The position numbers and the translations under genes were made by a program. Below, piece by piece: positions 1 to 40,498 of a DNA stretch of 64,000 bases (position 1 is the first letter of the stretch; each line of letters opens with the position of its first letter). The notes beneath the pieces are model-generated. The model did not search any database. It saw nothing but the letters and a program-made list of their open reading frames with translations, and was not told where the DNA came from. The DNA is from Candidatus Ruthia magnifica str. Cm (Calyptogena magnifica) (lineage in GTDB: Bacteria; Pseudomonadota; Gammaproteobacteria; PS1; Pseudothioglobaceae): assembly GCF_000015105.1 (NCBI RefSeq), contig NC_008610.1, positions 930,001-994,000 of the forward strand, in the 5' to 3' direction.

Positions 1-512
1 GATTGAAAGACTGCTTAATATACTTAATTATAATACTATTTTTTATTACGCGCCCAAGCCATGTTAGAGTTTTATACGCTTGTAGACTATGTGTCTCGGA
101 GTTGATTAATTTGAGTTATTATCATATTAATCTAGCTAATGAATATATTCGTATTCATGATAAGGGCGCCATGGATGAAGTGGCAATGGATTGTTTTAGT
201 AAATTACGAAAAAATACAAAATCATTTTTATTAAAAAAATGGCTAAACTGATAATTACTTTCTAGCTAATCGTGACGCCAATATAAGCCGACAAAATTCA
301 TTTTACATCAGCTATAAAACAGGTATTAACAAACTTCTATCGCCACATACACTGCGCTATGTTTTGCCATACATTTTAAAAAAAGAACAACCTTACATAG
401 TGTACAATTAATGCTCGAACATAGTAATATTTTTAGAACACAAATTTTATACTCACATTCAAAATACCTAGTTTTAAATTACAGCATAAAAAAACACTAC
501 CCCAGAGAGTAG
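1..512 (+). pseudogene. xerD: xerD tyrosine recombinase, decayed, 5' end outside the window
   Basis: This is a remnant of the C-terminal catalytic half of a XerC/XerD tyrosine recombinase, which resolves chromosome dimers at dif. The first frame, to about 251, carries the XerD-like stretch VLYACRLCVSELINL followed by IRIHDKG. The next frame (about 256-365) carries the box II motif LSPHTLRY. A third frame from 366 reads LHSVQLMLEHSNI and ends at a TAG at 510-512, where XerD proteins normally end. At least two frameshifts separate these parts, and the expected arginine-to-tyrosine region reads YSH rather than YTH. The order and spacing match XerD, so identity is fairly secure and function is very unlikely. 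Confidence 0.8.
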
Positions 513-1476
513 ATGTCTTGATAATACTAATTAAAAAAGATTTCGTCTCCTAAATTAGTTTGGTTAAATGATATCAACATTAATACTCTTGCTTATAAAA
601 AACATACAAAATTAAAAATAATTAGTGGAAATAAACATCGATATATATCATCCAAATATAGTAAAAACAAAAGAACATCACCTAATGTTAAAACAATATT
701 AACTACATTTTAACCTCACTAATTACTAAAAATACTTTTACCACTTCTAGATCTTCAATGATACCATTTTTTTTCATAAAACATAACAATTAGAGTCTTT
801 TTTATTACAAAATCTGTAAAATAGTTTTTTGTTAAAAATTAAGATTCTTTGCAAGAATATAATTATCCAATCTATCTAACATCCTATATCAACTATCAAA
901 AGATAGACTAAAAATATTGACGACTTTATAATGTGGATTATTTGAAATAATAATATACATGTGAAATATATTCACTTTATTATTACTATTTAATGATATC
1001 GTTATGCCATTCATGATAAAATATTTGATAATGTAATTCGATTTGGATACATCATAATTATTACATCAAATATTAAATCACTTTTCAACAATATAAAATC
1101 CTCTTGAATGACTTCTATAGTCAGACATAAAAAATAAATATTATTGGTTGTTTGACAAAACAGCATTAAAAACATATTCTATTTTATATCACTAACATGT
1201 TGTTCTAAATATTTACGGGCACTATGCTTTAAATAGTCTGTTGCTACAATTATTTTTTAACACCTTGAACACTAAATGTGTCAAATAAGTGCTGTAGAAT
1301 AGGTTTTTATTAAATAATAGTAAGACATTTGACACATCTAAAGTAAGTGATTGTAGACGATATCCTGTACCAAACAACCAATAAAACAACAATTGGAATT
1401 CATTGAATGTCTTTCATAATATTTTTTCCATTACTGAGTTTCGTATCTGTAATCATTATAGTACAATTTAAAAATA
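513..1476. other. gene-free decayed stretch between xerD remnant and greA
   Basis: No intact gene is visible in these 964 bases. Short open fragments suggest lost genes. On the plus strand, 541-712 reads about 55 codons without a stop but has no family I recognise. On the minus strand, about 1185-1300 reads FDTFSVQGVKK and then IIVATDYLKHSARKYLEQHV across frames. These look protein-like, but I could not assign a family. I saw no terminator or repeat array. Confidence 0.5.
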
Positions 1477-1953
1477 TTAAATATACTCAACACTTAATAC
1501 TTCATAAACAATATCACCCTTAGGTGCTTTCACTGTTACTTCATCACCTTCTTCGTTGCCCATTAATGCACTAGCAATTGGTGAATGACACGAAATTTTA
1601 CCTAGTATAATATCAGCTTCATCTTCACCCACAATTTTATACGTGGTTTCACTATCATCTTCAATGTTCATTAGGGTAATAGTAGTACCAAAAACACAAC
1701 GACCATCTTGATTAAGTTTAGTAACATCAATCACTTGCATACGAGAAAGCTTTGATTCAACTTCTTTGATTCGACCTTCAATAAAGCCTTGCTCTTCTTT
1801 AGCGGCGTGATATTCAGCATTTTCTTTAAGATCACCATGAGCGCGTGCTGTGACAATATTTTCAATAATACGTGGACGGCTAACATTTTTAAGTTTAAGT
1901 AATTCCGCTTCTAGTACTTTTGCACCAAAAACAGTCATTGGTATATTTTCCAT
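1477..1953 (-). CDS. greA: transcription elongation factor GreA
   Basis: GreA enters the secondary channel of RNA polymerase and stimulates cleavage of backtracked RNA. The 158-residue length is normal for the family. The N-terminal half forms the coiled-coil finger; the motif HGDLKENAEYHAAKEEQ places the tip acids at Asp41 and Glu44, as in E. coli GreA. The C-terminal half is the FKBP-like domain. The start codon overlaps the carB stop by one base (TAATG), so it is last in a carA-mlaA-carB-greA run and is probably translationally coupled. Identity is secure. Confidence 0.97.
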   Translation of the reverse strand: MENIPMTVFGAKVLEAELLKLKNVSRPRIIENIVTARAHGDLKENAEYHAAKEEQGFIEGRIKEVESKLSRMQVIDVTKLNQDGRCVFGTTITLMNIEDDSETTYKIVGEDEADIILGKISCHSPIASALMGNEEGDEVTVKAPKGDIVYEVLSVEYI

Positions 1954-4900
1954 TACAAGTGTAGTGATTGAAGTTTGGTTATGGTAAGTTTATTATTAAC
2001 TTTCAAACCATCCAGTATAGCAAATGCGGCTGCCACTGTGGTAGTAAATGGTACTTTATGCACCAATACTTGGCAACGAATTGCTGCAGCATCTTCCACT
2101 CCTTGAGTGTCTTCAGTTGAATTAATGATCAAATCAATGTCATCATTTTTAATCATATCAACAATATGAGGAGAGCCTTCTGATACTTTATTGACCACTT
2201 CACACTCAAGTCCGGCCTCATTTAACATATCCCTATTACTACGCGTTGAAACCAAGCTAAAGCCTTGTGCTAATAATTTTTTACCTAAATCAATCAATTC
2301 ATTACGGTCAAGTTTGCGTAAACTAACAAACACCTTGCCATTTTCTGGTACACGACTGCCTGCTGCTAATTGAGCTTTATCAAAAGCTGAGGCAAAATCT
2401 TTACCAATGCCCATTACTTCTCCTGTTGAGCGCATTTCAGGACCTAAAACCGGATCTACACCTAAAAATTTATTAAATGGGAATACAGCCTCTTTGACAC
2501 TAAAATGTTTAGGAATAATCTCTTTGGTAAAATTCTGTGCTTTAAGCGACACACCTGACATCACACGTGCAGCAATACGTGCCAGTGGTACTCCAATTGC
2601 TTTAGAAACAAAAGGCACTGTACGAGAGGCACGTGGATTAACTTCAATAATATAAATCTCACCATCTTGATAGGCTAACTGGGTATTCATTAAACCAATC
2701 ACATTTAATTTTTTAGCCATGGCAATAACCTGAATACGCATTTCATCCAACACATCACTGGCTAGCGAATAAGGTGGAAGTGAACAAGCAGAATCTCCTG
2801 AATGAATACCTGCTTGCTCAATGTGTTGCATAATACCGCCAATCACCACATCTTCACCATCACAAATTGCATCAATATCAACTTCAATGGCATGGTCTAA
2901 AAATGAATCTAACAAAACAGGAGAATTATTTGATACTTGAACTGCTGTATACATATAATGTTCAAGACTGTCTTTATCATAAACAATTTCCATTGCTCGA
3001 CCACCAAGCACATAAGAAGGTCTAACTATTAATGGAAAACCAATTGCATCTGCAATATCTTGTGCTTGTTCTAATGAACGTGCTGTGCCATTTAGTGGCT
3101 GCTTAAGCTCTAATTCTTGCAACATTTTAGAAAAACGTTCTCTATCTTCAGCTAAATCAATGGCATCTGGCGTTGTGCCAATAATATTTGCACCATTTTT
3201 TTCTAATGCATCAGCCAATTTAAGTGGTGTTTGACCACCATAATGCACAATAATACCATCTGGGTTTTCAATATCAACAATGGTCAGAACATCCTCTAAG
3301 GTCAATGGCTCAAAATACAAGCGGTCTGAAATATCGTAGTCAGTTGAAACTGTTTCAGGATTGCAATTCACCATAATCGTCTCAAACCCATCTTCACGTA
3401 GCGCTAATGATGCATGCACACAACAACAATCAAACTCAATACCTTGCCCAATACGATTGGGTCCGCCACCCAAAATCATAATTTTTTTCTTATTAGTTGG
3501 ATTGGCTTCACATTCGAGTTGATAAGTTGAATATAAATAAGCAGTCTGGGTGTCAAATTCTGCCGCGCAACTGTCCACTCTCTTAAACACAGGTTTAATA
3601 TTAAGCGCACGACGACGCTCACGCACTGAAGACTCACTACAACAAAATAATTGTGCCAAACGTGCATCAGAAAAACCTTTACGTTTCAAGGTAAACATTT
3701 TATCAGCATCAATATCAGTAACATTTATGCCATCAATTTGCAATTCAGTTGAAACAATATCTTGTATTTGCGTCAAAAACCAAGGGTCAACTTTAGACAA
3801 ATCAAATACTTCTTCAACACTCATGCCCAATCTAAAGGCATCAGCCAAATAAAAAATACGTTCACCTCGAGCTGAAATACACTCAGAACGTATTTTATTG
3901 CGTGCATCATAAGCGTTCAAATCAATAATAGGGTCTAATCCAACCTTGTCAGTCTCTAGCCCTCTTAATGCTTTTTGTAAAGATTCTTGAAAGGTTGAAC
4001 CAATAGCCATTACTTCGCCAACAGACTTCATTTGCGTGGTTAAACGATCATCTGCTTTGGGAAATTTCTCAAAGGCAAATCTTGGAATTTTAGTTACTAC
4101 GTAATCAATACTTGGCTCAAAAGAAGCGGGTATTTTACCACCTGTAATTTCATTATCAAGTTCGTCTAAAGTGTAACCTATAGCTAGTTTTGCAGCCACT
4201 CTGGCAATAGGAAAGCCTGTTGCTTTTGATGCCAATGCTGATGAGCGAGATACACGTGGATTCATCTCAATAATGGTTAAACGACCATTTTTTGGATTAA
4301 GCGCAAATTGCACGTTTGAACCACCTGTATCAACCCCAATTTCACGAAGCACTGCCAATGAAGCATCACGCATCACTTGGTACTCTTTATCAGTTAGTGT
4401 TTGTGCAGGTGCAACAGTAATTGAATCACCCGTATGAATGCCCATAGGGTCAAGATTTTCAATAGAACAAACAATAATACAATTATCTTTGCTATCACGC
4501 ACTACTTCCATCTCAAACTCTTTCCAGCCAAGAATAGATTCTTCAATTAAAAGTTCATTAGTCGGTGAAAGGTCTAAACCTCGTTCGCAAATTTCAACAA
4601 ATTCCTCTTTGTTATAAGCAATACCACCACCACTACCACCCATAGTAAACGAGGGACGAATAATGGTTGGAAAACCTACCGTTTTTTGTACAGTATGTGC
4701 TTGCTCTATATTATGAGCCACAGCGGCTTTAGGCATATCAAGGCCAATTTTTAACATCGCCTCACGAAATAAATCACGATCCTCCGCTTTATCAATGGCT
4801 TCTTTTTTAGCGCCAATCATTTCTACACCGTGTTTCTCAAGCACACCATGACGTTCTAAATCAAGTGCACAATTAAGTGCAGTTTGCCCGCCCATGGTCG

Positions 4901-5162
4901 GCAACAAAGCATCAGGTTTTTCTTTTTCAATAATTTTTTCAATCGTACGCCACTCAATTGGCTCAATATAAGTTGCATCTGCCATTTTCGGGTCGGTCAT
5001 GATGGTAGCTGGGTTGGAATTAATCAAAATAACACGATACCCCTCTTCACGCAATGCTGTACAGGCTTGCGCACCAGAATAATCAAACTCGCAAGCTTGA
5101 CCAATCAAAATAGGTCCAGAACCGATAATTAAAATACTTTTAAGATCTTGTCTTTTTGGCAT
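1953..5162 (-). CDS. carB: carbamoyl-phosphate synthase large subunit
   Basis: CarB makes carbamoyl phosphate from bicarbonate, ATP and CarA-derived ammonia for pyrimidine and arginine synthesis. At 1069 residues it is full length. Two homologous ATP-grasp halves are visible: the first begins [20 protein letters not shown], and the second begins [20 protein letters not shown] near residue 560. The C-terminal 130 residues form the MGS-like allosteric domain. It starts 21 bases after mlaA and overlaps greA by one base. The unusual point is its separation from carA by mlaA. No frame damage is seen. Confidence 0.98.
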
Positions 5163-5183
5163 TAGTGTGTGTTTTAAATTAGG

Positions 5184-5870
5184 TCAGAAGTCATCATTTT
5201 CAATAGGCGGATTACCATCAAAGATATCAAATTGTCTTTTTTGTAGATAAGAAGAGCGTGTTGCAATATAAACATCATCTGAATTTTTCAGTAAAACCGT
5301 TACTGGTAATAGCTTGACTCTAGTATCAACGGCTTGGGCGAGTAGTAAGGCCACTTCTTCAGTGGTATTTAACTCTTTGGTTACATCAATATTTTCAGTA
5401 ATATCAACATAAGTACCCGTTGAATCGCGCATGGTTGATGGACCTAAAACTGGTAAAACAACGTAAGGTCCACTTGACACACCCCACACTGCCATCGTTT
5501 GACCAAAATCTTCATTAGTTTTTTCTAACCCAATATCACTGGCAACATCAAACAAACCAACCAATCCAATGGTGCTATTCACTAAAATCCTGCCAAACGT
5601 ACTTACACTGTCAAATAATTTAAACTGCAAAATTTCATTACCCAACGTGTAAATATCGTTTAAATTAGAAGAAAAATCACTAACTCGATTTTGCATCGTT
5701 TTGGGTATAGATTCTTTATAAGTCCTAGCTATAGGCTCAAAGAAATTTTCATCTAAGGCTTGATTAAACTCAAAAACTACTCTATTTGATGCCTCAAATA
5801 AATCAACATCTTCAGCCATGGTAATTGTACCGAATATCAATAACAAAAAGCTCCTTAATAAATTTTTCAT
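5184..5870 (-). CDS. mlaA: MlaA/VacJ family outer-membrane lipid-asymmetry protein
   Basis: MlaA removes misplaced phospholipid from the outer leaflet of the outer membrane and passes it to the Mla pathway. Family features include the start of the mature region ([13 protein letters not shown]), the central [36 protein letters not shown] and the end segment Y(L)[10 protein letters not shown]. The 228-residue length is normal. The N-terminus is hydrophobic ([16 protein letters not shown]) and ends in a plausible signal-peptidase I site. No lipobox cysteine is present, so it may not be lipidated as E. coli MlaA is. Its ATG overlaps the carA stop (ATGA), and it lies between carA and carB. Confidence 0.88.
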
Positions 5871-9810: not shown

Positions 9811-12408
9811 TTAAATTAATGATTTAACTGAGGCAAGTGCCTTGGCTAAATATTCAGGCTGAGTACCCCCGCCTTGTGCCATATCTGGACGACCGCCACC
9901 TTTTCCACCAATTTGTTCTGCAACATAGTTAAGAATTTTTACAGCTTGATACCGCTTAGTTAAGTCTTTCGTTACACCTACAACTAACGATACTTTATCA
10001 TTACTTACCACTGCTAATACGATAACAGCCGAACCTAGTTTGTCTTTGAGCTTATCAGCAATGTTACGCAAATCTTTGCCACTAGACCCTTCTACGACAG
10101 TCGAAAGTAATTTAATATTTCTCACTTCTTGCACTTGTCCAATCAAATCATCTCCTTGATTGCTGGTTAATTGTTTTTGGAAAATGGTAATTTGTTCTTC
10201 CAATTCTTTTTGCTGTTTAATAAATTGTGTGACTTTTTCTACCACTTGTGCATTGTTTGACTTGGTCATTTGTGAAATTTCACTCAAGCTATTTTGCATT
10301 TGATTATCAAATTGGTACGCATCATAGCCTGTTAACGCTTCAATACGACGCACACCAGCAGAAACACCACTTTCTGAAGTAATTCTAAAAAGTCCAATAT
10401 CGCCGAGTTGCTTCACGTGAGTGCCGCCACATAATTCCACTGAAAAATCATCTTTACCCATGGTTAAAACACGAACAGTATCACTATATTTTTCACCAAA
10501 TAGCGCTATTGCGTCTTTTTTTTTTGCATTTTCAATATTAATAATATCGGTATGTACTTTTGTATTTCCTAAAATCTTACGATTAATCATGCCTTCAATT
10601 TTATTGATGTCTGATTTAGTAATCACCTCATCATGCGAGAAATCAAAACGTAGTTTTTCACTATCGACCAAAGAACCTTTTTGCGTTACTGTCTCACCCA
10701 GAACAATGCGAAGTGCGGCATGTAATAAATGTGTTGCTGAATGATTTCTAGCAATACATTTACGAGATTTTTTATCAACATTGGCTTGTATTGTATCACC
10801 CACTTTTAAAACGCCCTTGTTTAAAACGCCATAATGTTCAAATACGCCTGATTTTTGTTTATTTGTATGATCCACTTTAAACTCAATTTTTGCATTAGAC
10901 AGAACGCCGCTATCGCCAACTTGGCCACCTGACTCAGCATAAAAACTTGACTGAGCTAAAACTACAATTCCATATTCACCTGCTTTAATTTCTTCAACCA
11001 ATTTACTATTTTTAACAAGTGCTAGAATTGAAGAAATATTCTCCAATTGTTCATAACCTAAAAACTCAGTTACTCCTATGATATCAACATTTTTTTTAGA
11101 TATTTTAAAATCTCCTGCTTGTCGAGCGCGGTCTCTTTGTCTGGTCATTTCAAACTCAAAACCTAACATGTCAATGGTTAAATGACGCTCACGAGCAATG
11201 TCTGCTGTTAAATCTATTGGAAAACCATAAGTATCGTAAAGTTTAAAAACTGTTTTACCATCAATCTCACTACCATTAAGATTGGTGATTGCATCTTCTA
11301 AGAGTCTCATACCTTGGTCTAACGTTTGTGAAAAACGTTGTTCTTCACGCTTTAGTACCTTTTCAACTTTAGGTAAAGCTTGTTTTAATTCCGGATAAGC
11401 ATCTTTGAATTCCAATGCCAATACTGGCGCCAAACGGTAAAAAAATACTTTGTCAATACCCATCTTATGTCCATGACGAATACCACGGCGAATAATACGA
11501 CGAAGTACGTAACCCCTGCCTTCATTTGAAGGGTTGACGCCATCAACAATCATAAAAGCAGTAGAACGAATATGATCAGCAATCACACGCACCGAGGCAT
11601 TATTATTTTTAATATTATTGGATTTAGGTGTTAGGTTTACAATAGCCTTAACAAGACTTTGAAAACCATCTGTATCGTAATTGTTATTCTTATGTTGTAA
11701 CACAGCGGCTAAACGTTCCAAACCCATGCCTGTATCTACACAAGGTACAGCTAATGGTTTTAAATGACCATCTTCTTGTTTATCAAATTGTGTAAATACT
11801 AAGTTCCATATTTCAATATATCGGTCACCATCTTCATCAGCATGCCCTGGTGGGCCACCGGCAATATGCTCACCATAATCATAAAAAATCTCACTTGATG
11901 GACCACACGGGCCTGTATCACCCATTTGCCAAAAATTATCTTTAGTACCACAACGAGAGATTCGGTTTTTAGGAAAGCCAATTTCATTGATCCAAATATT
12001 TTCTGCTTCATCGTCCTCTTCAAACACACTCACCCAAAGTTTTTCCTTGGGTAGGTTTAACTCTTTTGTCAGAAATTCCCAAGCATAATAAATAGCTTCA
12101 CGTTTAAAATAATCACCAAAACTAAAATTACCCAACATTTCAAAAAAAGTATGGTGGCGTGCTGTATAGCCAACATTTTCAAGATCATTGTGTTTGCCGC
12201 CAGCACGCACGCAACGTTGAACCGATACAGCACGCATATATGGACGCTTTTCCACGCCACTAAATACATCCTTAAACAGCACCATACCTGCATTAACGAA
12301 CAATAAAGTTTTATCATTATGAGGAATAAGTGATGCACTAGACTCAATCGTATGACCTTTTGACTCAAAATAATCTAAGAATTTTTGTCTAATTTGTGCA
12401 GTTTTCAT
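9811..12408 (-). CDS. alaS: alanyl-tRNA synthetase
   Basis: AlaS charges tRNA-Ala and edits mischarged Ser and Gly. The 865-residue length is normal. The class II catalytic core starts TAQIRQKFLDYFESKGH. The editing domain has RNHSATHLLHAALR (zinc-binding HxxxH) and ELCGGTHV with the third ligand cysteine. The C-Ala domain carries GGKGGGRPDMAQGGG. The coding strand contains an A10 run (plus-strand T10 at 10516-10525) in the AKKKDA segment of the editing domain. The frame is intact there, but slippage is possible. Confidence 0.98.
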   Translation of the reverse strand: MKTAQIRQKFLDYFESKGHTIESSASLIPHNDKTLLFVNAGMVLFKDVFSGVEKRPYMRAVSVQRCVRAGGKHNDLENVGYTARHHTFFEMLGNFSFGDYFKREAIYYAWEFLTKELNLPKEKLWVSVFEEDDEAENIWINEIGFPKNRISRCGTKDNFWQMGDTGPCGPSSEIFYDYGEHIAGGPPGHADEDGDRYIEIWNLVFTQFDKQEDGHLKPLAVPCVDTGMGLERLAAVLQHKNNNYDTDGFQSLVKAIVNLTPKSNNIKNNNASVRVIADHIRSTAFMIVDGVNPSNEGRGYVLRRIIRRGIRHGHKMGIDKVFFYRLAPVLALEFKDAYPELKQALPKVEKVLKREEQRFSQTLDQGMRLLEDAITNLNGSEIDGKTVFKLYDTYGFPIDLTADIARERHLTIDMLGFEFEMTRQRDRARQAGDFKISKKNVDIIGVTEFLGYEQLENISSILALVKNSKLVEEIKAGEYGIVVLAQSSFYAESGGQVGDSGVLSNAKIEFKVDHTNKQKSGVFEHYGVLNKGVLKVGDTIQANVDKKSRKCIARNHSATHLLHAALRIVLGETVTQKGSLVDSEKLRFDFSHDEVITKSDINKIEGMINRKILGNTKVHTDIINIENAKKKDAIALFGEKYSDTVRVLTMGKDDFSVELCGGTHVKQLGDIGLFRITSESGVSAGVRRIEALTGYDAYQFDNQMQNSLSEISQMTKSNNAQVVEKVTQFIKQQKELEEQITIFQKQLTSNQGDDLIGQVQEVRNIKLLSTVVEGSSGKDLRNIADKLKDKLGSAVIVLAVVSNDKVSLVVGVTKDLTKRYQAVKILNYVAEQIGGKGGGRPDMAQGGGTQPEYLAKALASVKSLI

Positions 12409-18983: not shown

Positions 18984-19544
18984 TTAATGAGACACGTTTT
19001 CTCGTTTAATAACTTTTAAAAAAGTCATCCATAATATTCTTATGTCAAACCAAAATGACTGATAAGCTATATACTCTATATCTAAATTAACTTTATCAAT
19101 AATTGACAATGTATCTCGCCCATTAACTTGCGCCCAACCAGTGACGCCCGGCAATAATTTATACACTCCTTTTTTAGTGCGCAAAGCAATTAAATCCTCT
19201 TGGTTAAACAGTGCAGGTCGTGGCCCCACAAAGCTCATATCACCTTTTAAGATTGAATACAATTGTGGCAATTCATCCAAACTTGTACGTCGCAAAAACT
19301 CACCAATAGGCGATAAATAAGTACTTGGATTGTTTAACAAGTGTTTTGCTATAATGGGGGTATTCATTCGCATTGTACGAAACTTTGGCATATTAAAAAT
19401 AATATTATTTTTTCCGACTCTATCTGACCAATAAAGTATACTGCCCTTTAAGGTTGATTTAACTAATACAGCCACTACAATAATCGGCAACAACATTAAC
19501 GAAGTACAAATTATAACCAACAACAAATCAAATCCTCTTTTCAT
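18984..19544 (-). CDS. initiating sugar-phosphate transferase (PglC/WcaJ-C type)
   Basis: This 186-residue monotopic phosphoglycosyl transferase moves a sugar-1-phosphate onto undecaprenyl phosphate, starting repeat-unit assembly at the inner membrane. It begins KRGFDLLLVI with one membrane-inserted hydrophobic helix. Next come PKFRTMRMNTP, the catalytic Asp-Glu in RRTSLDELPQL, GDMSFVGPRPAL and GVTGWAQVNGRD. The short PglC-like form lacks the N-terminal membrane domain of WcaJ. The start overlaps the stop of the broken epimerase by four bases, so the two were a translational pair. Confidence 0.93.
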   Translation of the reverse strand: MKRGFDLLLVIICTSLMLLPIIVVAVLVKSTLKGSILYWSDRVGKNNIIFNMPKFRTMRMNTPIIAKHLLNNPSTYLSPIGEFLRRTSLDELPQLYSILKGDMSFVGPRPALFNQEDLIALRTKKGVYKLLPGVTGWAQVNGRDTLSIIDKVNLDIEYIAYQSFWFDIRILWMTFLKVIKRENVSH

Positions 19545-20432
19545 TTGCTACCCCTTAAGCGTTCCACCCATAATGACAACACAGGTTGCCAACCTAATAA
19601 ATTCCTTATCTTAGAATTATCTACTTGAAGTAATGAAGATAAGTAAATTGCATTTAATTTTTTACTCAATAAATTAGCAATAAAAATCATAAAGCCTACA
19701 GGAATTAACAATAAATATGGATTTTTATCAAAGGCTTTTTTCAATTTTTTTAAGTAGCTGCGTGGTAGATAAATCTTGATCATCAGAAATTAAAAAAACT
19801 TCATTTAAAACTTTTTTATGACTTACGCAAGTAATTATAAAATCTACCAAATTATCAAGCGTTATTAAAAAACGAGTATTTTTAATCAATCCCAATGTTA
19901 AAGGCATTAAAAATTTTGAACTTAACCAATTAATCAACCTACCAAAATTACCAGGCATATTAACATCATAAACTAAAATAACCACCTTTAAACCTGTCTT
20001 ATTTAATAATTTAAACCCACTTTAGATTCATATTTACTAACGGCATAAGGTTCTTATGAATTAAGCTTTGTTATTTTCTGTGAATTCAATATTGCTACTA
20101 TTGACATTAATCCTAATAGAGCTAATAAAAATTAATCTTTTTACTTTATTAATAGCTGATTACGTTACCAAATTCAAATTTGTATTTATTTGTTGAAATT
20201 CATCAAGTACTGACATCTTCTTTGGATCAAGTACATCTGCTTTACCTGCTAGACGCATCACAACATCAATGCCACCTAAACTGTGCGAAAATACCCAATC
20301 ACAAACTGCTTAATCCTATTAGAAAAAATATTTATTTTTATACGAATAACGACAGATAAATTACCCCCTTATTAAGTAATTCTTTAGACAACGCTACCTA
20401 CAAAACCTGTCGCCTGAGAGTAATATGTTCAT
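19541..20432 (-). pseudogene. NAD-dependent nucleotide-sugar epimerase/reductase, frameshifted
   Basis: Fragments in several frames rebuild an extended SDR protein of the type paired with PglC/WbpL and WbpM. In order they are an ATG at 20430-20432 with the start of a TGFVGS motif, GIDVVMRLAGKADVLDPKKM, LVYDVNMPGNFGRLINWL, and LDNLVDFIITC. EVFLISDDQDLSTTQLLKKI and DNSKIRNLLGWQPVLSL follow. At least four frame breaks are needed. The ends still overlap the neighbours exactly: TAATG with the upstream GT2 and ATGA with the transferase. Loss seems recent. It probably reduced or epimerised the WbpM product. Confidence 0.85.
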
Positions 20433-26720: not shown

Positions 26721-27607
26721 TTAATCTATCCAAGTAAACTTTATCCTTCTCAAAATAGAGTAAATAAAAATTATTTTTACGATTATAAAATTTGGGATAA
26801 TTTTTCTAAAAATGGATAATTTTTTCCTTTTCTCTCTAAATTCAATTAATTTAATTTCATACCTAGACATGCTATTCTTATACAAACCTCTACTTATCAA
26901 TGAGTAACCATCATTCCCATGATCATCATCAATACTTGCAAAAAGTTCATATTTTGGTATGGCCAATGTGATTGGATAAAACCCAGTATCCGTAGATCTT
27001 TTTTCAAAATCAAATGGGGTTTCTTTTGACCATCGTTTTAATTTCGGATGATTTGTTCTAATAATTTTATTAAACAATTTAACACTAGAAATACTAACTG
27101 CAGATAGTACATAAAAGTATCGGCTAAATTTTTTCTCTATGACATGGATGTTTTTCATATTCATATCATATATATTCAAATGATTTGTTGCATGTGAAAC
27201 TATACATTTAAATTTATCTTTAGTACCATTATGCCACCAACTATATATTAAATGATCAACTTTATTCTCTCTCATATCAATCAAAATATCATCAAATTTT
27301 TCAATATTAGCCATATTAATATGATCTTCTATCCAAAAAAATACAAAATCTGTATCTATTTGAGGTAACATCTCTCGTGTATCATAAAACCACCCTTTTC
27401 TAGATTCTATTACATATGGATACAGCGCCTCACTAAGTTGTTCTTTTAAAAAAAAATAGTTTTAAGTTTGTAACTACCTCTAACATTTATCACCCATTTT
27501 TGGGCTTTAATATCTTTAAATGATTCAAATGAATCTTTCATTCTTTGATATCTCTCTTCATTGTTAATTCTAAAATTAGCAAAAATAGTTAGAGTTGGTG
27601 TGTTCAA
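26721..27607 (-). CDS. unknown polysaccharide-cluster protein interrupted at a T9 tract
   Basis: Two collinear frames make one protein of about 295 residues. The first starts at TTG 27605-27607, with GGAG six bases upstream overlapping the end of the previous gene. It reads LNTPTLTIFANFRINNEERY and on to VINVRGSYKLKTIFF, then stops in a coding-strand T9 run (27448-27456). One extra T restores KEQLSEALYPYVIESRKGWF and joins the open frame to 26721. The second part has FVFFWIEDHINMA, perhaps an acidic sugar-nucleotide site. I do not recognise the family. An intact frame of 216 residues starts at 27371, but lacks the conserved beginning. Confidence 0.6.
27448..27456 (-). other. T9 homopolymer at the frameshift
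   Basis: Nine T residues on the coding strand (A9 on plus) sit exactly where the frame of the surrounding gene shifts. A tract of ten would restore the full reading frame. Such tracts are sites of replication or RNA polymerase slippage. Confidence 0.6.
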
Positions 27608-27610
27608 ATC

Positions 27611-28744
27611 TTACTCCATAAACCTTACATTATGATTAATATTTTTCAAAATATCTTTTTTTATTTCATTGTTATAAACGCCAGCTTTAAGTATCACCAT
27701 GGGATTTTCAATATTTTTTAAAATTTCTGGTGATGCAACTTGCATATCTGTGCCATACAATCTTTTACCTTGTTTATTTGGATCATTATCCAATAGGCAA
27801 ACCATTTTACTAGTATTTAAGCCAAAGGCTATTAGGTATTGAGAAAATACATGAGCACCAAACAAATAAATCTTAGTGGTGCTATTTTCTATTCTTTTAT
27901 TCAAATTATGTACTAATACTTCATGATATAAAATATAGTCTAAATATAGTTTTTTATTTTCTTCATATAGGCTATCATTTAATTGAATAGGTTGTACAGA
28001 TGAATCTTTTATAGTGCCATAAAAAATACTATGATCATCCATAAAATATTCTTTTTTATCTATTTTAAACCCATGTTTAGCAAGTAGATATTCAACATAA
28101 GGCTCTGTTAAAAAAATTGTATGTTCAAAGTTAATACAATTTGTATATTTTCGCTCTAACATCACTTTCATATTTGGAATACTAAAAATTAATTTTTTTC
28201 CATCTTTCATGAGCTTAGATAAATATTTTATAAAAGCATCTGGTTCATAAATATGTTCAAATACATGGGAATGTACTATTGTGTCATAATCATCTTCAAA
28301 TATAAAAGTATCATCAAAAAAACATTTTATAAGATTGACTTTTACTCCACTAGCTAGAATAGGATTTGGTTCTACAATGGTCCAATTTGAGCTGTTAATA
28401 TCTTGGTACTTTTTTGATAAAATCCCATGAGCCCCTCCAATTTCAATCAAACTATTTGGATTATAGTAACTTAAAAATTTAGCAAATGCATTATGATGAT
28501 TGTCCCATATTTTTCCTACAGCCCCTGCATGATTTTCAGGATATAGTATATTTAAAGGAATCAATTCTTTTAATTCAATCAATCCTGAATTTTTAAAAAT
28601 AACCCAAGTCATATCAGCAACCAAGTCTTCCTTTTGTAATTGTTTAGTACACCCCATATAAACTGGAAAATTTCTCAAAGTATGCAAAATTTCTAAATTT
28701 TCACTCTTTGTAATTTCGCATCTATTTCTAGTTCTTATTTCCAC
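27611..28744 (-). CDS. class I SAM-dependent methyltransferase with C-terminal domain
   Basis: A 377-residue protein. The SAM-binding motif is SLIEIGGAHGILSKKYQD near residue 98. A later IVHSHVFEHIYEPDAF segment is typical of class I methyltransferases. The N-terminal 70 residues contain RNRCEI and PVYMGC and resemble the N-terminal region of sugar C-methyltransferases, but a complete zinc-binding Cys set is not seen. The C-terminal domain (IYLFGAHVFSQYLI, LDNDPNKQGKRLYG) resembles that of NovU-like sugar methyltransferases. The start is GTG at 28742-28744, overlapping the upstream stop (TAGTG). A sugar or nucleotide-sugar is the likely substrate. Confidence 0.78.
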   Translation of the reverse strand: MEIRTRNRCEITKSENLEILHTLRNFPVYMGCTKQLQKEDLVADMTWVIFKNSGLIELKELIPLNILYPENHAGAVGKIWDNHHNAFAKFLSYYNPNSLIEIGGAHGILSKKYQDINSSNWTIVEPNPILASGVKVNLIKCFFDDTFIFEDDYDTIVHSHVFEHIYEPDAFIKYLSKLMKDGKKLIFSIPNMKVMLERKYTNCINFEHTIFLTEPYVEYLLAKHGFKIDKKEYFMDDHSIFYGTIKDSSVQPIQLNDSLYEENKKLYLDYILYHEVLVHNLNKRIENSTTKIYLFGAHVFSQYLIAFGLNTSKMVCLLDNDPNKQGKRLYGTDMQVASPEILKNIENPMVILKAGVYNNEIKKDILKNINHNVRFME

Positions 28745-30315
28745 TAACCTTCTCCTAAAATCTCATTTAACATATTTTTACCAAGATAAAAAAGCAATAA
28801 ACTGTATGGATAATGATGAAGTGTTGCAATATTAAGATAAATTAATGCTGTCATTAATTGCACTCTCTTATAACTATATCCTTGTTGTTCAATCCATTTT
28901 TTAAAATAATTTTCACAATCAACTAAATTTTGTTTTCTTAAAAAATCATAATAAACTGTATTTAGTCTATGATCCACTTCAAATAGATTTTTATCAACCA
29001 ATTCATGTGACACAATAATGCCATGATTTAATTTTGCAAAATCATAATAAATATCACCATAGTCCATAATTCCACCAAAATTTTGCCTCCAATCAATTAA
29101 AGTAAATGGTATTTTACTTTCACTATTTATAAGAATATTTTCAAAATGCAAATCGCCATGAAATCTAACAGGAATACCACAAGTTAATTCATTCCAATTA
29201 ACTTTATCTAATAAATTAAAAATTTTAGGAATTTTATTACCATTTATTATTTCTTCTAAGTCTATCTGCTCAAAAATTGTAAAATATTGTTTCACTCTTT
29301 TGTATGTTTTTTCTTTATAAAACTTCATACAAATATCTTTAAATTCTTTTTCTTGATTTTTATCTAAATCTTTTTTAATCCAAAACTTTTCCATCCAATC
29401 AAGATAATACTTAAAAGTGCTTATTGTAGGATTCTTAGAAAGAACTTCACCTTTAACCTTGTTATATGAATACATATTAGTAGTTGAATTTATTATACTT
29501 GGTATAAAGTTTTCCAAACCTTTTGCTCTTTGCACTCTATCTTTTATAAATAACTCATCAATAGAAAATTTAACAACTTTATCAGCCACAAACCAAATAG
29601 CTTCTTCTTCTTTTTCTAATATATTTGCATCAATATTTTTACTAAAATACTCTCTTGTTTTATTTAATTCATTAATATTGCCAGTGTCAAACCATGTAAA
29701 TGTAATTGGTTCAATCCCCTTATCTATTAAAAACCTAAGACCATAACTTTCGCCTATTTCAATTGAGCCTTGATTTATCCCGCTATTCATAGCCTTCCAA
29801 AACTCTTTATAATCATAAATCCCAGCTAATCCTATATAGGCCTTAACATCACCCTTTGTACCTTTTACACATATCTCCACTACATCTCTTTTTTGAGTTC
29901 TTATTGTTCGATATTGACTATTATTTTTAATTTTGGCTTGACCCATCCAATTGTGTAATGGAGGTTTAATATTCTCTAAAACTAGAGTATCATTTGAACT
30001 AAATATAAAAGGGCATTGTAAGTATTTTTCACATTGAATAATAGTATAGCCAAGACCAGAGCCCTCGCCTTCATACAAATTAACATCAACAAAAGTAAAT
30101 TTTCTATTCGAATAAGCTAGAGTTAAATAATCTTTAACAGTTTGCGCTTTATATCCTACAGGTATAATAAATTCTACATTTTCATCAAATTTTTCAATAA
30201 TATATGAAATTACAGGTTTATGAGCAACTGATATTAAGGCTTTATTAACATTTTTTGTCATACCTTTCAGTCTATTACCAAGCCCAGCAGAAGCTATTAA
30301 AACTTTATATTGCAT
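28744..30315 (-). CDS. nucleotidyltransferase fused to APH/choline-kinase-type kinase
   Basis: This 523-residue protein has two enzymes in one chain. Residues 1-240 are a sugar-phosphate nucleotidyltransferase: VLIASAGLGNRLKGMTKNVNKAL at the start, SSNDTL for the metal and WFDTGNINEL near the end. Residues about 260-520 are an aminoglycoside/choline-kinase fold: FHGDLHFENILI is the catalytic loop and LIDWRQNFGG holds the metal Asp. I choose the ATG at 30313-30315, one base after the cupin stop. It could phosphorylate a sugar or alcohol and activate it as an NDP or CMP derivative. The substrate is not known. Confidence 0.78.
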   Translation of the reverse strand: MQYKVLIASAGLGNRLKGMTKNVNKALISVAHKPVISYIIEKFDENVEFIIPVGYKAQTVKDYLTLAYSNRKFTFVDVNLYEGEGSGLGYTIIQCEKYLQCPFIFSSNDTLVLENIKPPLHNWMGQAKIKNNSQYRTIRTQKRDVVEICVKGTKGDVKAYIGLAGIYDYKEFWKAMNSGINQGSIEIGESYGLRFLIDKGIEPITFTWFDTGNINELNKTREYFSKNIDANILEKEEEAIWFVADKVVKFSIDELFIKDRVQRAKGLENFIPSIINSTTNMYSYNKVKGEVLSKNPTISTFKYYLDWMEKFWIKKDLDKNQEKEFKDICMKFYKEKTYKRVKQYFTIFEQIDLEEIINGNKIPKIFNLLDKVNWNELTCGIPVRFHGDLHFENILINSESKIPFTLIDWRQNFGGIMDYGDIYYDFAKLNHGIIVSHELVDKNLFEVDHRLNTVYYDFLRKQNLVDCENYFKKWIEQQGYSYKRVQLMTALIYLNIATLHHYPYSLLLFYLGKNMLNEILGEG

Positions 30316-30316
30316 A

Positions 30317-30664
30317 CTAATCTCGTTTATATCTATCTTGTAGTCTAACAACATCTTTTAATTCTGGCGTTGAGATTTCAAAATAAATACTATCTTCCAA
30401 TGCTTCCATTCTATGAATTTTAAATGGATAGAGAGTTAGATAACTATTTGGTTTCATAACAACTTCATCAAGTTCGTCTATTTTATCTCCAATATATACT
30501 TTTAAACTCCCAATTAAAAGATACACTGTTTCAGTTTTTATCTCATGGTATTGTAAACTGCATGCATGCCCTTTATACATTGTTAGTTTTTTAAACACAT
30601 ATTTCTCATTTTTTTCTAGAAGATCCTCTTTTCCCCATGGTTTTTTTGTAGTTACCAGTTCCAT
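30317..30664 (-). CDS. small cupin, mannose-6-phosphate isomerase C-terminal type
   Basis: A 115-residue single-domain cupin. It begins VTTKKPWGKEDLLEKNEKYVF, like the KPWG start of type II phosphomannose isomerase domains. The cupin motif is CSLQYHEIKTETVYLLIGSLKV with conserved His and Glu metal ligands. PFKIHRMEAL gives the second histidine motif. It could be a sugar-phosphate isomerase or an epimerase for the neighbouring activation genes. It lies 10 bases after the aldolase gene and one base before the nucleotidyltransferase-kinase gene. Confidence 0.78.
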   Translation of the reverse strand: MELVTTKKPWGKEDLLEKNEKYVFKKLTMYKGHACSLQYHEIKTETVYLLIGSLKVYIGDKIDELDEVVMKPNSYLTLYPFKIHRMEALEDSIYFEISTPELKDVVRLQDRYKRD

Positions 30665-30674
30665 TTTATATCCT

Positions 30675-31820
30675 TCATATCATTTTAAATAATTGTATAT
30701 ATCTTGTCATAGATTGTTTAATCAATGTTTTTAAATATTCATCTAAATTTATATTCTTCCGTAACAATCCACTTACAACTTTTTGTTTCATTTCAATTAT
30801 TTGTTCATTTGAAAATATATAATGCCCGCAAATAATAGTTTTATCAATTGCTGTAGTTTTACTATCTTCCAATATCCATTTTTTCCATTTATTTGAGGAT
30901 ACAGCTATATTTACAAATAAATCAAATTCTTTTTTATATCCAAAAGTATTTAAAAGGTATAAAAAACCTTTTGTTTCAACTACACCAAACTCTGGTGCTA
31001 CATTTGAAGCGCGGATGCCTAATATTGGTCTTAAAGACAACGCCTCATTGCTGAGATAATCAACATTATGTTCTTTTAACATCACATCATATTTCTTACA
31101 CAGAAATACAGTCTGTTTTAAATGTTCAAGCGATAAATTACTAGTAGTTATAATATCATCTTTAAATATCCCTACATTTTTACACTCCATCACTTTTGTA
31201 CCTGTTTGAGCAACTACAAAAGTTGGTTTTGTTATTTTATTTTTTTTATAAAATTTTTGAGTTTCATTTAAGAAATATTCAAATTGTTCAAGGCTTTGTC
31301 CATAACCATCTTGCTCTTCGGTTCCTAATTCAAATTGTATATTTTTATTATTTTGTTTGGCAAACTCAAAGGTATGACCATATAGTTCAAATAATCTATT
31401 TAAGATTTTATCTATTGTTAAATTTTCACCTTGAATTGGAATACTAGGATCTAAATGTAGAAAATTAAATTCAGCTAAAATATCATTTTCAAGTGATTTT
31501 TTCGCAGAAATCATAGAATCTAATATATTTAAATTATTTTCTATTTCAGATATGCCTTGCCAAAGACCGCCATGATCCCTTGCTAAAAAAATTTTGTTTG
31601 CATTTTTATTTTTTACATAATTTACAAATTTTTCAGTAGTGAAATTTTCTACATAACCACCTCCAAATTCCTTACTATCTATTTGTCTTCTACTGGCAAT
31701 AAGGATCTGGGGTATATTAAATTGTTTAGATAATTCTATACTAGCATCAATACAATTTTTACTCATAGGGCCACTACATAGTAATGTGGCTTTTTTATTT
31801 TTTAAAAAATCTTTTATCAT
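30675..31820 (-). CDS. GatZ/KbaZ-like class II tagatose-bisphosphate aldolase family protein
   Basis: A 381-residue TIM-barrel protein of the GatZ/KbaZ family. In E. coli these support the catalytic aldolase subunit for tagatose-1,6-bisphosphate. Matching segments are ILIASRRQIDSKEFGGGYVE, a KIFLARDHGGLWQ segment in the position of GDHLGP, and FELGTEEQDGYGQSL. A catalytic GatY/KbaY partner is not present, and the protein is shorter than the usual 420 residues. The polysaccharide context points to carbon-skeleton building for an unusual sugar rather than galactitol catabolism. That is inference. Confidence 0.75.
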   Translation of the reverse strand: MIKDFLKNKKATLLCSGPMSKNCIDASIELSKQFNIPQILIASRRQIDSKEFGGGYVENFTTEKFVNYVKNKNANKIFLARDHGGLWQGISEIENNLNILDSMISAKKSLENDILAEFNFLHLDPSIPIQGENLTIDKILNRLFELYGHTFEFAKQNNKNIQFELGTEEQDGYGQSLEQFEYFLNETQKFYKKNKITKPTFVVAQTGTKVMECKNVGIFKDDIITTSNLSLEHLKQTVFLCKKYDVMLKEHNVDYLSNEALSLRPILGIRASNVAPEFGVVETKGFLYLLNTFGYKKEFDLFVNIAVSSNKWKKWILEDSKTTAIDKTIICGHYIFSNEQIIEMKQKVVSGLLRKNINLDEYLKTLIKQSMTRYIQLFKMI

Positions 31821-31846
31821 GCTGTCTAGTGTCCACTTAATCTAAT

Positions 31847-32338
31847 TTATTTATTTGGTAATTCATCTAGAATATATGGCTTAAAAAAATTTTCTAATAT
31901 ATGTAAACTAGCTTCTGCAACGGCACGATTCGCACCACTTCTCTTAGTAATAAAGTCCGCTACACTCTTCACATATTCATCACCATTTGCAGGGGCAATA
32001 CAATAAGCTACTTTTTTAAACACATAATGATCAAATATACCATCTCCCATATAAATTACCTCTTTTAGGTCCCATTTCTCTTTAATCCAATCAATTCTTT
32101 TAATCGTACTTACTAAATGAAGTGGTCTTTTCATATCGTCCACTATTCTAGATTTTGATATTTCAAAACCTCTATGATCTCCTGTTACAAAATGAATATC
32201 AAGATATGGCTCTAGTAATGATAAAGCATCATTATCATCCGCCCCAAACACTTTCATGATTTTTCCATCTGATGAATAGTAAAACCTTCCATCTGTCATT
32301 ACACCATCTACATCTAATATAAAAATTTTAGGACTCAC
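31847..32338 (-). CDS. KdsC-like HAD phosphatase
   Basis: A 163-residue HAD phosphatase of the KdsC subfamily, small C0-type proteins that form tetramers. The nucleophile motif is FILDVDGVMTDGRFYYSSDG near the N-terminus. Motif II is the Thr in HFVTGDHRG. Motif III is in KRIDWIKEKW, and motif IV is VIYMGDGIFDHYVFK. KdsC removes phosphate from KDO-8-phosphate, but the GatZ-like gene 26 bases downstream suggests another acidic or keto sugar phosphate. It overlaps the wzx start region by 11 bases. Confidence 0.85.
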   Translation of the reverse strand: MSPKIFILDVDGVMTDGRFYYSSDGKIMKVFGADDNDALSLLEPYLDIHFVTGDHRGFEISKSRIVDDMKRPLHLVSTIKRIDWIKEKWDLKEVIYMGDGIFDHYVFKKVAYCIAPANGDEYVKSVADFITKRSGANRAVAEASLHILENFFKPYILDELPNK

Positions 32339-37546: not shown

Positions 37547-38275
37547 GTGAATAAAGTTAATATTGTATGCATGAAATGGGGTGATAAATTTTCTGTTGAG
37601 TATGTTAATCGACTCTTTGGCATGGTTTCTCGTCATCTTTTTATGCCGTTTCGATTTGTGTGTTTCACTGAAAATAGTATAGGCATACGAGACGAGGTAG
37701 AAGTACAAGATTTACCAAAATTAGACCTATCACCTGGATTGCCAGAAAGGGGTTGGCAAAAATTAACTGTATTTAAAAAAGACTTTGGTGGCTTATCTGG
37801 ACCTACTTTATTTCTAGATTTAGATATAGTGGTGGTTGGAAATTTAAATGATTTTTTCACTTATCCTGGTGACTTTCTAATTGCCCATGATAAGAAAAAT
37901 CCAAAAAAAATAGAAGGCAACTCATCAATATTTAGGTTTGAAATTGGGCAACATTCAGAAATTTTAAGTCATTTTGAACAAAATTATGAATTAGTGAAAA
38001 CCGAAGTACGCCATGAACAGGCGTACTTATCACGTGAAATGTACAAACAAGACAAATTGAGATATTGGCCAGATGAATGGGTACCAAGCTTTAAGTATCG
38101 CTGTTGTCCTTCTTGGATAAAGTCTTGGTTTCAAACACCTTTTATACCCAAGGGTTCAAAAGTTGTTTTATTTCATGGCTTACCCAATCCCCCCGAAGCA
38201 ATTATTGGATGTAGTGGAAAATGGTATCGACACATCCAGCCATCGTCCTGGATTGAAGAATATTGGAAAATCTAA
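37547..38275 (+). CDS. glycosyltransferase with GT-A fold (GT8-like)
   Basis: A 242-residue transferase. It begins KVNIVCMKWGDKFSVEYVNRL, and the DxD-type metal motif is TLFLDLDIVVVGNLNDFF near residue 90. A VVLFHGLPNPPEA segment near the end resembles the HxxGxxKPW-like region of GT8 enzymes. The start is GTG at 37547; the next in-frame ATG (37571) would remove the first beta strand, so GTG is favoured. It likely modifies LPS core or capsule. Its stop overlaps the start of a broken GT25 gene (TAATG). Confidence 0.75.
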   Translation: MNKVNIVCMKWGDKFSVEYVNRLFGMVSRHLFMPFRFVCFTENSIGIRDEVEVQDLPKLDLSPGLPERGWQKLTVFKKDFGGLSGPTLFLDLDIVVVGNLNDFFTYPGDFLIAHDKKNPKKIEGNSSIFRFEIGQHSEILSHFEQNYELVKTEVRHEQAYLSREMYKQDKLRYWPDEWVPSFKYRCCPSWIKSWFQTPFIPKGSKVVLFHGLPNPPEAIIGCSGKWYRHIQPSSWIEEYWKI

Positions 38276-38900
38276 TGAACGCTACAAAAATTACTATTTA
38301 TATTATCAATTTAGATAGAAGTTCTATCGGATTATCTTATATAGACAAGTAATCATTTAAATTAAAAATGTCATTTAAAAAGATGGCAGCAATTGATTCT
38401 CACCAAATTCAACCTCAAATATTACAATCTTATTAATAACAATCAAGCTCTCATTATACGACTTTATTTACAGGAGAAATTATCTGTGCTCTTACTTAGG
38501 AATGGCTTAAGCCATAACTCTCTAATCTGATTATGATTTAATCATAATCACAGGTGGCGTGTTTGTTGGTAAGGAAAATTATATTAAACTTGCTATAGAA
38601 CAATTAGATCAAATAAATTTATACTGTATTAAGACAAAACCAAACAAGCCACTTATTTTTGGTAGCCTAGAGCATTGTGCTTTTATTGGATTGTCATGAA
38701 ATCCAGTTTCTGCCATGGCAATTTTCTTACTCTTTGCTCGGCCTTTTATTAAAAAATACAAGGTACAAGTCACTATCTAAATACTACTTTTAAAACTCAA
38801 GCAAACTTTGATTGGTATAAGCCAAAACCTATACGTAAATTTGTACGTACACACCTGACCATACAACTTTTTCCAACCTATATGTATTGTAAGAGGATGA
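38275..38900 (+). pseudogene. GT25-family glycosyltransferase, decayed
   Basis: The first frame starts at an ATG overlapping the previous stop and reads ITIYIINLDRSS, the GT25 N-terminal motif, before a stop at codon 26. Later frames give MAAIDSHQIQPQILQSY, TGEIICALT (the family's GEIGCxLSH segment) and GGVFVGKENYIKLAIEQL. The last part, about 38700-38900, reads FARPFIKKYKVQV and LNTTFKTQANFDWYKPKP. Several stops and shifts make it non-functional. The end is not exact. Confidence 0.68.
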
Positions 38901-39709
38901 TGTTAAAATGCATGATAGCATTAAGAATATAATTGAAATTATATTTCAACATTTAGATGAAAAATTTTTGATTAATCTGTCTGGCAAAAAGGCATGCTAG
39001 AAAAAGAAAAAACATTAATAATATTGTGTTTATTCGTTATCAAACACCGTCACTTAAAAACCAAAATACTATTTATGGTAAATTAGCTACTCAAAATTTT
39101 TAAGATACCTGTCGACACACTAAAATAAATGCTTTAATTTTATAATGTACAAATTTAAAGTTTGGATTAAGGTTGTGTTTCTCTCTCCAATATTTTTAAA
39201 TAGGTGGTTCAACAATTTTAACCAAAAAAATAAAAAATCTGTCCAATAAGATTAGTATGGATTTTAAAAGCCAGAAAAAACAACTTATTACTGCATAGAG
39301 AGATAATATACACTTATAATGATTTTCATAATATTGAAACACACGATGGCTGGTTTTTGTAACTGATATTTTTTCAGATTACTCTGATGATAATGCACTT
39401 AAGGATTTATCCATAGCATGTCCATACCTACTAAATACTATCAAAATATAAAAATGGGCGTTTCATTACTAATGCACAAAACAACAAGGATAATAAAGAA
39501 AAAATACCAACCTCAATATAGAAGGAATAATACTTTAATGTTTACAATTGGTAATGGCGACACGCTTATAAATATGGTTTGGCGTATTAATAATTAACAT
39601 TGTAGGTCAAATATTGCTTGAAGCGCTTCTAAGATTACAAAAAATTGACACTGTCTTGTCTATAAACATTTTAAACGCAAAGCATATGCTAAAAATAGGA
39701 TGATGGTAG
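38901..39709 (+). other. decayed stretch, unidentified gene remnants
   Basis: No intact gene is seen. Short protein-like fragments on the plus strand include an open start at about 39145 (MYKFKVWIKVVFLSPIFLNRW). A later frame reads LLLHREIIYTYNDFHNIETH with TDIFSDYSDDNALKDLS, and one near 39540 reads MFTIGNGDTLINMVWRINN. They probably derive from one or two lost surface-sugar genes. I could not assign a family. Confidence 0.4.
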
Positions 39710-40498
39710 ATGAATATTTTTGTTATTAATTTAGAAAATTCTGTAGAACGTCGCAACTTTCAACAAGAACAGTTATTTGCACTTAAGTTAGATTTTGAGT
39801 TCTTAGATGCAATATCAACCACTGATGTAAGTACAACAATTCACAAACAGTATTGCCAAGATTGGCAACGCCCCTTAAAGGCAACCGAAGTTGCTTGTTA
39901 TTTTTCTCATCGCTGTGCATGGAATAAGGTAATTCAATCAAACCAACCAGCCTTAATACTAGAAGACGATGCGTTACTATCAAAATGTGTACCCGAATTA
40001 CTTGCAAATCTTTCTGATAAAAAAAGTATTGATTTAGTCAATCTTGAAAACAGAAGTAGAAAAAAATTCATCTCAAAATCTAATGTACTCCTCGAATGTA
40101 ACTCAAAACTTCTTCGTCTTTATCAAGATAGAACAGGCGCTGCTGGATATATTCTCTATCCAAATGGAGCAAAAAAACTCATACAATGCGAAAAAAGAAA
40201 AGGAATTGCACTAGCTGATGCACATATTACTGCTTGTAATAGCATCAAAGCCTATCAAGTAGAACCAGCGCCCATTATTCAACTGGATCAGTGTAATTAT
40301 TATGGATTAAACAACATCTATCCAGAAAAAATATTCACTTCAACTATTGATAATTGTAACAATCTACAAGGCAACTTATATTTTCGAATAAAAAGAGTTT
40401 ATTTTCAGATAAAACTAGGGTTACGTCAACTATTGTTAATAACAAAATCAGAAAGACGATATGTAAAACTTAAAAAAGAAGATTTTTTACAAAAATAA
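39710..40498 (+). CDS. GT25-family LPS glycosyltransferase
   Basis: A 262-residue GT25 enzyme, the family of LgtA/LgtB-like LPS galactosyltransferases. It begins MNIFVINLENSVERRNF, then FLDAISTTD, and KATEVACYFSHRCAWNKVI is the family EIGCxxSH segment. The metal-binding acids are in ALILEDDALLS near residue 85. TGAAGYILYPNGAKKLI is also typical. It likely adds a sugar to the LPS core or oligosaccharide. Its end faces the waaL-like gene, with a hairpin between them. Confidence 0.85.
   Translation: MNIFVINLENSVERRNFQQEQLFALKLDFEFLDAISTTDVSTTIHKQYCQDWQRPLKATEVACYFSHRCAWNKVIQSNQPALILEDDALLSKCVPELLANLSDKKSIDLVNLENRSRKKFISKSNVLLECNSKLLRLYQDRTGAAGYILYPNGAKKLIQCEKRKGIALADAHITACNSIKAYQVEPAPIIQLDQCNYYGLNNIYPEKIFTSTIDNCNNLQGNLYFRIKRVYFQIKLGLRQLLLITKSERRYVKLKKEDFLQK

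Follow-up and report, generated by a model that had tools for sequence, protein, structure and literature searches.

The closest described counterparts of the gene considered here are the slippage-rescued genes of Buchnera and Blochmannia, in which a single indel in an A/T run interrupts an otherwise intact gene in the reduced, AT-rich genome of an obligate symbiont (cited in PMC5009743; PMC3017870). For Blochmannia vafer, eight genes of this type and 153 poly(A) tracts within coding sequences are on record (PMC3017870), and corrected transcripts in Buchnera and Blochmannia amount to 12-50% (PMC5009743). Single-nucleotide insertions are the common slippage event at A/T runs in both E. coli and Buchnera and rise steeply with run length, homopolymer insertions being confined to A/T runs (PMC5574713), and the E. 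coli polymerase slips more on T runs than on A runs (PMC6260861). Two genes from enteric pathogens are also pertinent. In mxiE of Shigella flexneri one additional U at a T9 tract is needed to fuse the overlapping ORFs mxiEa and mxiEb (PMC6260861, PMC1088944), with slippage at 20-30% (PMC4256274), and in tssM1 of Citrobacter rodentium an interrupted gene is restored by nucleotides added during transcription at an A11 tract (PMC4256274).

The gene described here is of the kind known from Buchnera and Blochmannia, slippage rescue itself being putative in this case. It belongs to Candidatus Ruthia magnifica, which lives inside the cells of the clam Calyptogena magnifica as a sulfur-oxidising symbiont. 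The genome is a single contig of 1,160,782 bp (1.16 Mb in PMC3202245), and its reduced, AT-rich character bears out the likeness to Buchnera and Blochmannia that the original prediction had drawn. Ruthia has two genes split in this way among 52 A/T runs. What differs is that the run is of T rather than poly(A), that the symbiont lives in a marine clam, and that the gene is accessory and most likely horizontally acquired. The resemblance to mxiE extends to the length of the tract, the single U needed and the overlapping frames, but mxiE is an established functional arrangement whereas the homologues of the Ruthia gene lack the run, and the T9 split looks like a lineage-specific accident. The tssM1 gene resembles what we propose for Ruthia in its mode of restoration and differs in its poly(A) run of 11 by an early stop late in the gene and in the requirement for both length variants.

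Two frames meeting at a T9 tract

The split gene lies at positions 26721-27607, minus strand, of the window (the whole stretch of 64,000 nucleotides that was analysed) and consists of two frames that meet at a T9 tract:

27607 to 27446, minus strand: 5' part of the split gene, an ORF of 53 amino acids with a TTG start and a TAA directly after T9
27448 to 27456, minus strand (A9 on the plus strand): T9 tract, junction of both frames
27446 to 26721, minus strand: 3' part, open for 241 codons in the neighbouring frame, with an internal ATG at 27371
27614 to 27617, minus strand: Shine-Dalgarno-like GGAG, 6 bases upstream of the TTG start and within the last bases of the overlapping methyltransferase gene

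The interval 27440-27607 given in the original prediction contains the 5' part but not the whole gene. Its central claim, a gene split at a T9 tract whose frames are both open and protein-like and are joined by a tenth T, is confirmed: the two frames fuse on addition of one T (loss of two T gives the identical frame) into a protein of about 295 amino acids, and homologues align with it without a gap over the junction. The codons leading into the stop of the 5' frame are ACT ATT TTT TTT TAA; read in the zero frame, the tract presents the heptamer U_UUU_UUU and then UAA. That the two ORFs are paired by chance is ruled out by this gapless homology together with a Markov simulation, in which the longest open stretch among 2000 sequences of the same composition (905 nt each) was 120 codons.

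The 5' ORF starts directly after the end of the methyltransferase gene, and the TTG start is usable and has, as had been claimed, a good Shine-Dalgarno sequence, GGAG six bases upstream. The further claim that the 5' part keeps no damage apart from the tract agrees with the roughly 295 codons of the gene, which contain no other stop or frameshift, but the start, ATG in the Arcobacter homologue, has become TTG and is a second possible weakening; expression of the gene may thus be relaxed already. As in the Buchnera and Blochmannia genes, a single indel in an A/T run of at least nine is accompanied by a remainder that is open in frame. Promoter-like matches occur at the rate of shuffled sequence, and a scan for terminators yielded none. 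In Pfam and NCBIfam no match above the curated cut-off assigns the protein to a named family, the PDB holds no relative of it, and two AlphaFold models are of low confidence (pLDDT 37-41).

The order of zero-frame codons, a slippery heptamer and then a stop (ATT TTT TTT TAA), raises the question of rescue by the ribosome, as a -1 slip on U_UUU_UUU just before the UAA would go in the direction needed and give the identical fusion protein, and the second split gene discussed below, ccmG, has A_AAA_AAA in like relation. However, a heptamer of this kind is present in any nine-base run, and a stimulatory structure is absent: the 101 nt around the tract fold no better than shuffles do (z = +0.9), and no stable hairpin follows the tract. 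We consider ribosomal rescue very improbable, and its programmed form, a -1 frameshift with a stimulator, was rejected on finding the heptamer but not the downstream structure. Since no stimulatory RNA structure is present, transcription is the likelier level of rescue.

The glycan cassette, its homologues and its surroundings

Upstream of the split gene lie five intact genes:

27611-28744, minus strand: methyltransferase (Methyltransf_23) that also resembles, weakly, a C-methyltransferase C-terminal domain; the same neighbour is found in Arcobacter
28744-30354, minus strand: sugar nucleotidyltransferase-like protein with an APH-like kinase domain
30317-30664, minus strand: cupin / mannose-6-phosphate isomerase C-terminal domain
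30675-31820, minus strand: GatZ/KbaZ-like protein, weak Pfam match below the cut-off
31847-32338, minus strand: KdsC-like HAD phosphatase, below the cut-off of the curated model

Together with the split gene these neighbours (27611-32338) form a six-gene cassette whose order, KdsC-like, GatZ-like, cupin, nucleotidyltransferase/APH, methyltransferase, split gene, is shared with an Arcobacter MAG (positions 270-5852 of its locus L004) and in part with a Neomarinimicrobiota MAG. The five neighbours are 74-83% identical to their counterparts in the Arcobacter MAG. Among 82 further genomes of the family to which Ruthia belongs, the split gene has no homologue and the nucleotidyltransferase/APH gene no full-length one, and GC content falls to about 27% at the cassette vs about 34% outside. 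This synteny, the absence from the family and the drop in GC indicate that the cassette was most likely acquired horizontally. The combination of nucleotidyltransferase-APH, GatZ-like and KdsC-like genes suggests an undescribed sugar pathway.

A homologue scan with one genome per species returned two relatives of the split gene, in the Arcobacter MAG (60% identity) and the Neomarinimicrobiota MAG (44%); a search at order level added no homologues to those of the family search, and a scan of viral contigs gave no relatives. The intact homologues that accompany the Buchnera and Blochmannia cases are thus represented here by two MAGs of unrelated lineages from outside the family, each of which spans the junction in one frame and aligns there with the fused protein without a gap. 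At the junction the Arcobacter MAG reads ATT TTA TTT CTT AGA and the Neomarinimicrobiota MAG AAT TTT TTA AAA; a 9-base run is present in neither and, among the copies found, is unique to Ruthia. The 5' part is 88% identical to the Arcobacter homologue over 51 codons, and the differences between the two genes fall on 21 of the 51 third positions but on only 9 of the 102 first and second positions (Fisher p = 6e-6). The local codon signature is likewise present in both parts of the gene, each in its own frame. Until a short time ago the gene most likely still worked, although the conservation relative to Arcobacter mostly reflects the time before the break.

Other parts of the window contain genes in more advanced decay. 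At 19544-20432 (minus strand), 3' of a sugar transferase gene, lies a remnant with many stops and frame changes that is epimerase-like (NAD-dependent) by a Pfam match that is not significant. Between two glycosyltransferase genes, the segment 22320-23316 (minus strand) holds only broken frames, including a hydrophobic ORF of 104 amino acids, and looks like one or more dead genes of the glycan locus. Further away, remnants at 38270-39715 (plus strand) include a molybdopterin-binding fragment (MoCF_biosynth, E 7e-6, just under the cut-off) and probably represent a dead moeA-like gene.

The split gene, then, is a cassette-borne gene of a surface-glycan locus, broken by a contraction of one nucleotide. 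Whereas the two remnants of this locus have many stops in every frame, it has a single lesion and must therefore be either young or still in use. In the former case it could be a plain pseudogene, an accessory glycan gene inactivated by the loss of one nucleotide and in early decay, with too little slippage product to matter. Its absence from all other genomes of the family, the clearly decayed remnants in the same locus and the change of its start from ATG to TTG would all suit such a fate. However, some 295 codons contain no second lesion, and an active gene with a T9 tract should give some +1 transcripts regardless of selection (PMC5574713, PMC4256274). We therefore regard a plain pseudogene as unlikely, albeit as an explanation to be taken seriously.

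Mismatch repair, A/T runs and the split ccmG gene

MutS models matched nothing in the genus (12 genomes, Ruthia and 11 congeners), and MutL models nothing in the Ruthia genome, in a search that detected both proteins in 11 of 14 control genomes. Term searches of PMC3202245 and PMC5310779, which treat repair-gene loss in these symbionts, did not bring up MutL in either paper, nor MutS in PMC5310779. Slipped-strand errors in A/T runs are to be expected in such a repair-poor genome.

We took a census of A/T runs of at least nine over the whole Ruthia genome by pattern search and inspection of individual stretches. It yielded 52 runs, of which 41 have nine bases, 11 have ten and none has more. Nine of the 52 fall into short frames or intergenic DNA, 41 lie inside a single open frame 150 or more codons long, and two coincide with a gene split, the T9 tract of the glycan-locus gene and an A10 tract in ccmG/dsbE. 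Frames ending at a tract edge at genome positions 715019 and 1020619 proved on inspection to belong to intact genes. One of the in-frame runs, an A10 (mRNA sense) in the essential gene alaS at 10516-10525 of the window, could serve as a control for RNA slippage within the same genome. Congener genomes contain 41-83 9-mers each vs 63 in Ruthia, so its supply of runs is not special.

The census also bears on the reliability of the T9 tract. Nine T might be peculiar to the assembly or to the symbionts of the sequenced clam, in a population of mixed lengths or with ten T; 24 indels separate a Galapagos consensus from the reference (PMC13345212), and differences of this sort are usually found at homopolymers. 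On the other hand, the reference is a finished Sanger genome of about 14x coverage (PMC3035367), in which a T9 is normally well read, and the location of 41 of the 52 runs within one open frame indicates that tract lengths are generally right. An artefact or polymorphism of this kind thus appears quite improbable.

Phase variation, which the original prediction had also entertained, would mean that T9 turns a surface glycan gene on and off reversibly. The classical layout, with a tract close to the 5' end of a gene for surface polysaccharide where mismatch repair is lacking, is just that of the split gene. However, a tract of nine is short and is not specific to the locus, since runs of nine or ten occur 52 times in the genome, most of them in frame in unrelated genes, and none exceeds ten. 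Moreover, the homologues have no tract at the junction, and transmission is mainly vertical (PMC13345212), which leaves little reason for a contingency locus. We do not retain phase variation, which we hold to be extremely improbable.

The second split gene, ccmG/dsbE, is located at 709038-709564 of the genome (minus strand) and is interrupted at an A10 tract (mRNA sense, 709385-709394), which is flanked by the fragments MKKFLPLVL...IQDKLKK and KISLVNIWASWCVTCR. Addition of one A, or a -1 slip at A_AAA_AAA, restores the frame, and the fused product is recognised as DsbE/CcmG (TIGR00385, 164 bits, above the cut-off). The frame is intact in 11 of 11 congeners, and in the ten whose junction was read it is TTACAAGGAAAAATATCT or a close variant with a run of A5; in Ruthia it reads TTAAAAAAAAAATATCT. 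CcmG/DsbE is needed for c-type cytochromes. The adjoining genes ccmE and ccmC as well as ccmF elsewhere in the genome are intact in Ruthia, which is predicted to respire oxygen only, by way of cytochrome c oxidase (PMC2642828). Given the intact ccmC, ccmE and ccmF and this predicted dependence on oxygen, a wholly dead ccmG is hard to accept. Counting against this argument, Ruthia has thioredoxin-like paralogues of about 26-28% identity, as do its congeners, and the A10 run could be polymorphic. Even so, ccmG is a stronger argument than the glycan gene for frame rescue in Ruthia, and the better test case. Term searches in papers about Ruthia turned up neither the split glycan gene nor ccmG nor slippage at runs of this kind.

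A proposed leaky allele and its meaning

How, then, may the glycan gene have come to its present state? The explanation that we favour, and regard as rather probable, is that of a single cassette gene of about 295 codons which has lost one T, so that its DNA allele encodes a stub while slippage on T9 still provides some full-length protein. Ruthia would have acquired the gene within the six-gene cassette; base changes would then have turned codons 51-54 into a T run, from which slipped-strand replication would have removed one T, with neither MutS nor MutL detected that could correct the loss. We infer this direction of the mutation as well as its recency. The DNA allele would now specify a stub of 53 amino acids, and slippage of RNA polymerase on T9 would most likely insert an extra U into part of the transcripts. 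The result would be a leaky, weakened allele with some full-length protein rather than a programmed switch. Rescue by +1 U slippage in transcription is plausible, and if the gene is transcribed some full-length product is likely, judging by the insertion behaviour known from E. coli and Buchnera and by slippage at the T9 of mxiE. That the gene is accessory counts against this explanation, and absent rescue it is simply a young pseudogene. For the genome as a whole we advance more tentatively, and at somewhat less than even weight, that at least two genes of Ruthia, ccmG included, have their full frames only in slipped transcripts or through slipped translation.

Taken by itself, the split glycan gene shows nothing out of the ordinary, only how gene loss begins in a symbiont in which mismatch repair is not detectable, and its value is that it led to ccmG/dsbE, which is split alike. 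If ccmG transcripts with A11 were present in the gill, transcriptional rescue would reach to marine symbionts, and counts of gene loss that treat such genes as dead would need correcting. If two genes are indeed rescued, frame rescue at A/T runs would be at work in a chemosynthetic symbiont from the sea, beyond the insect endosymbionts.
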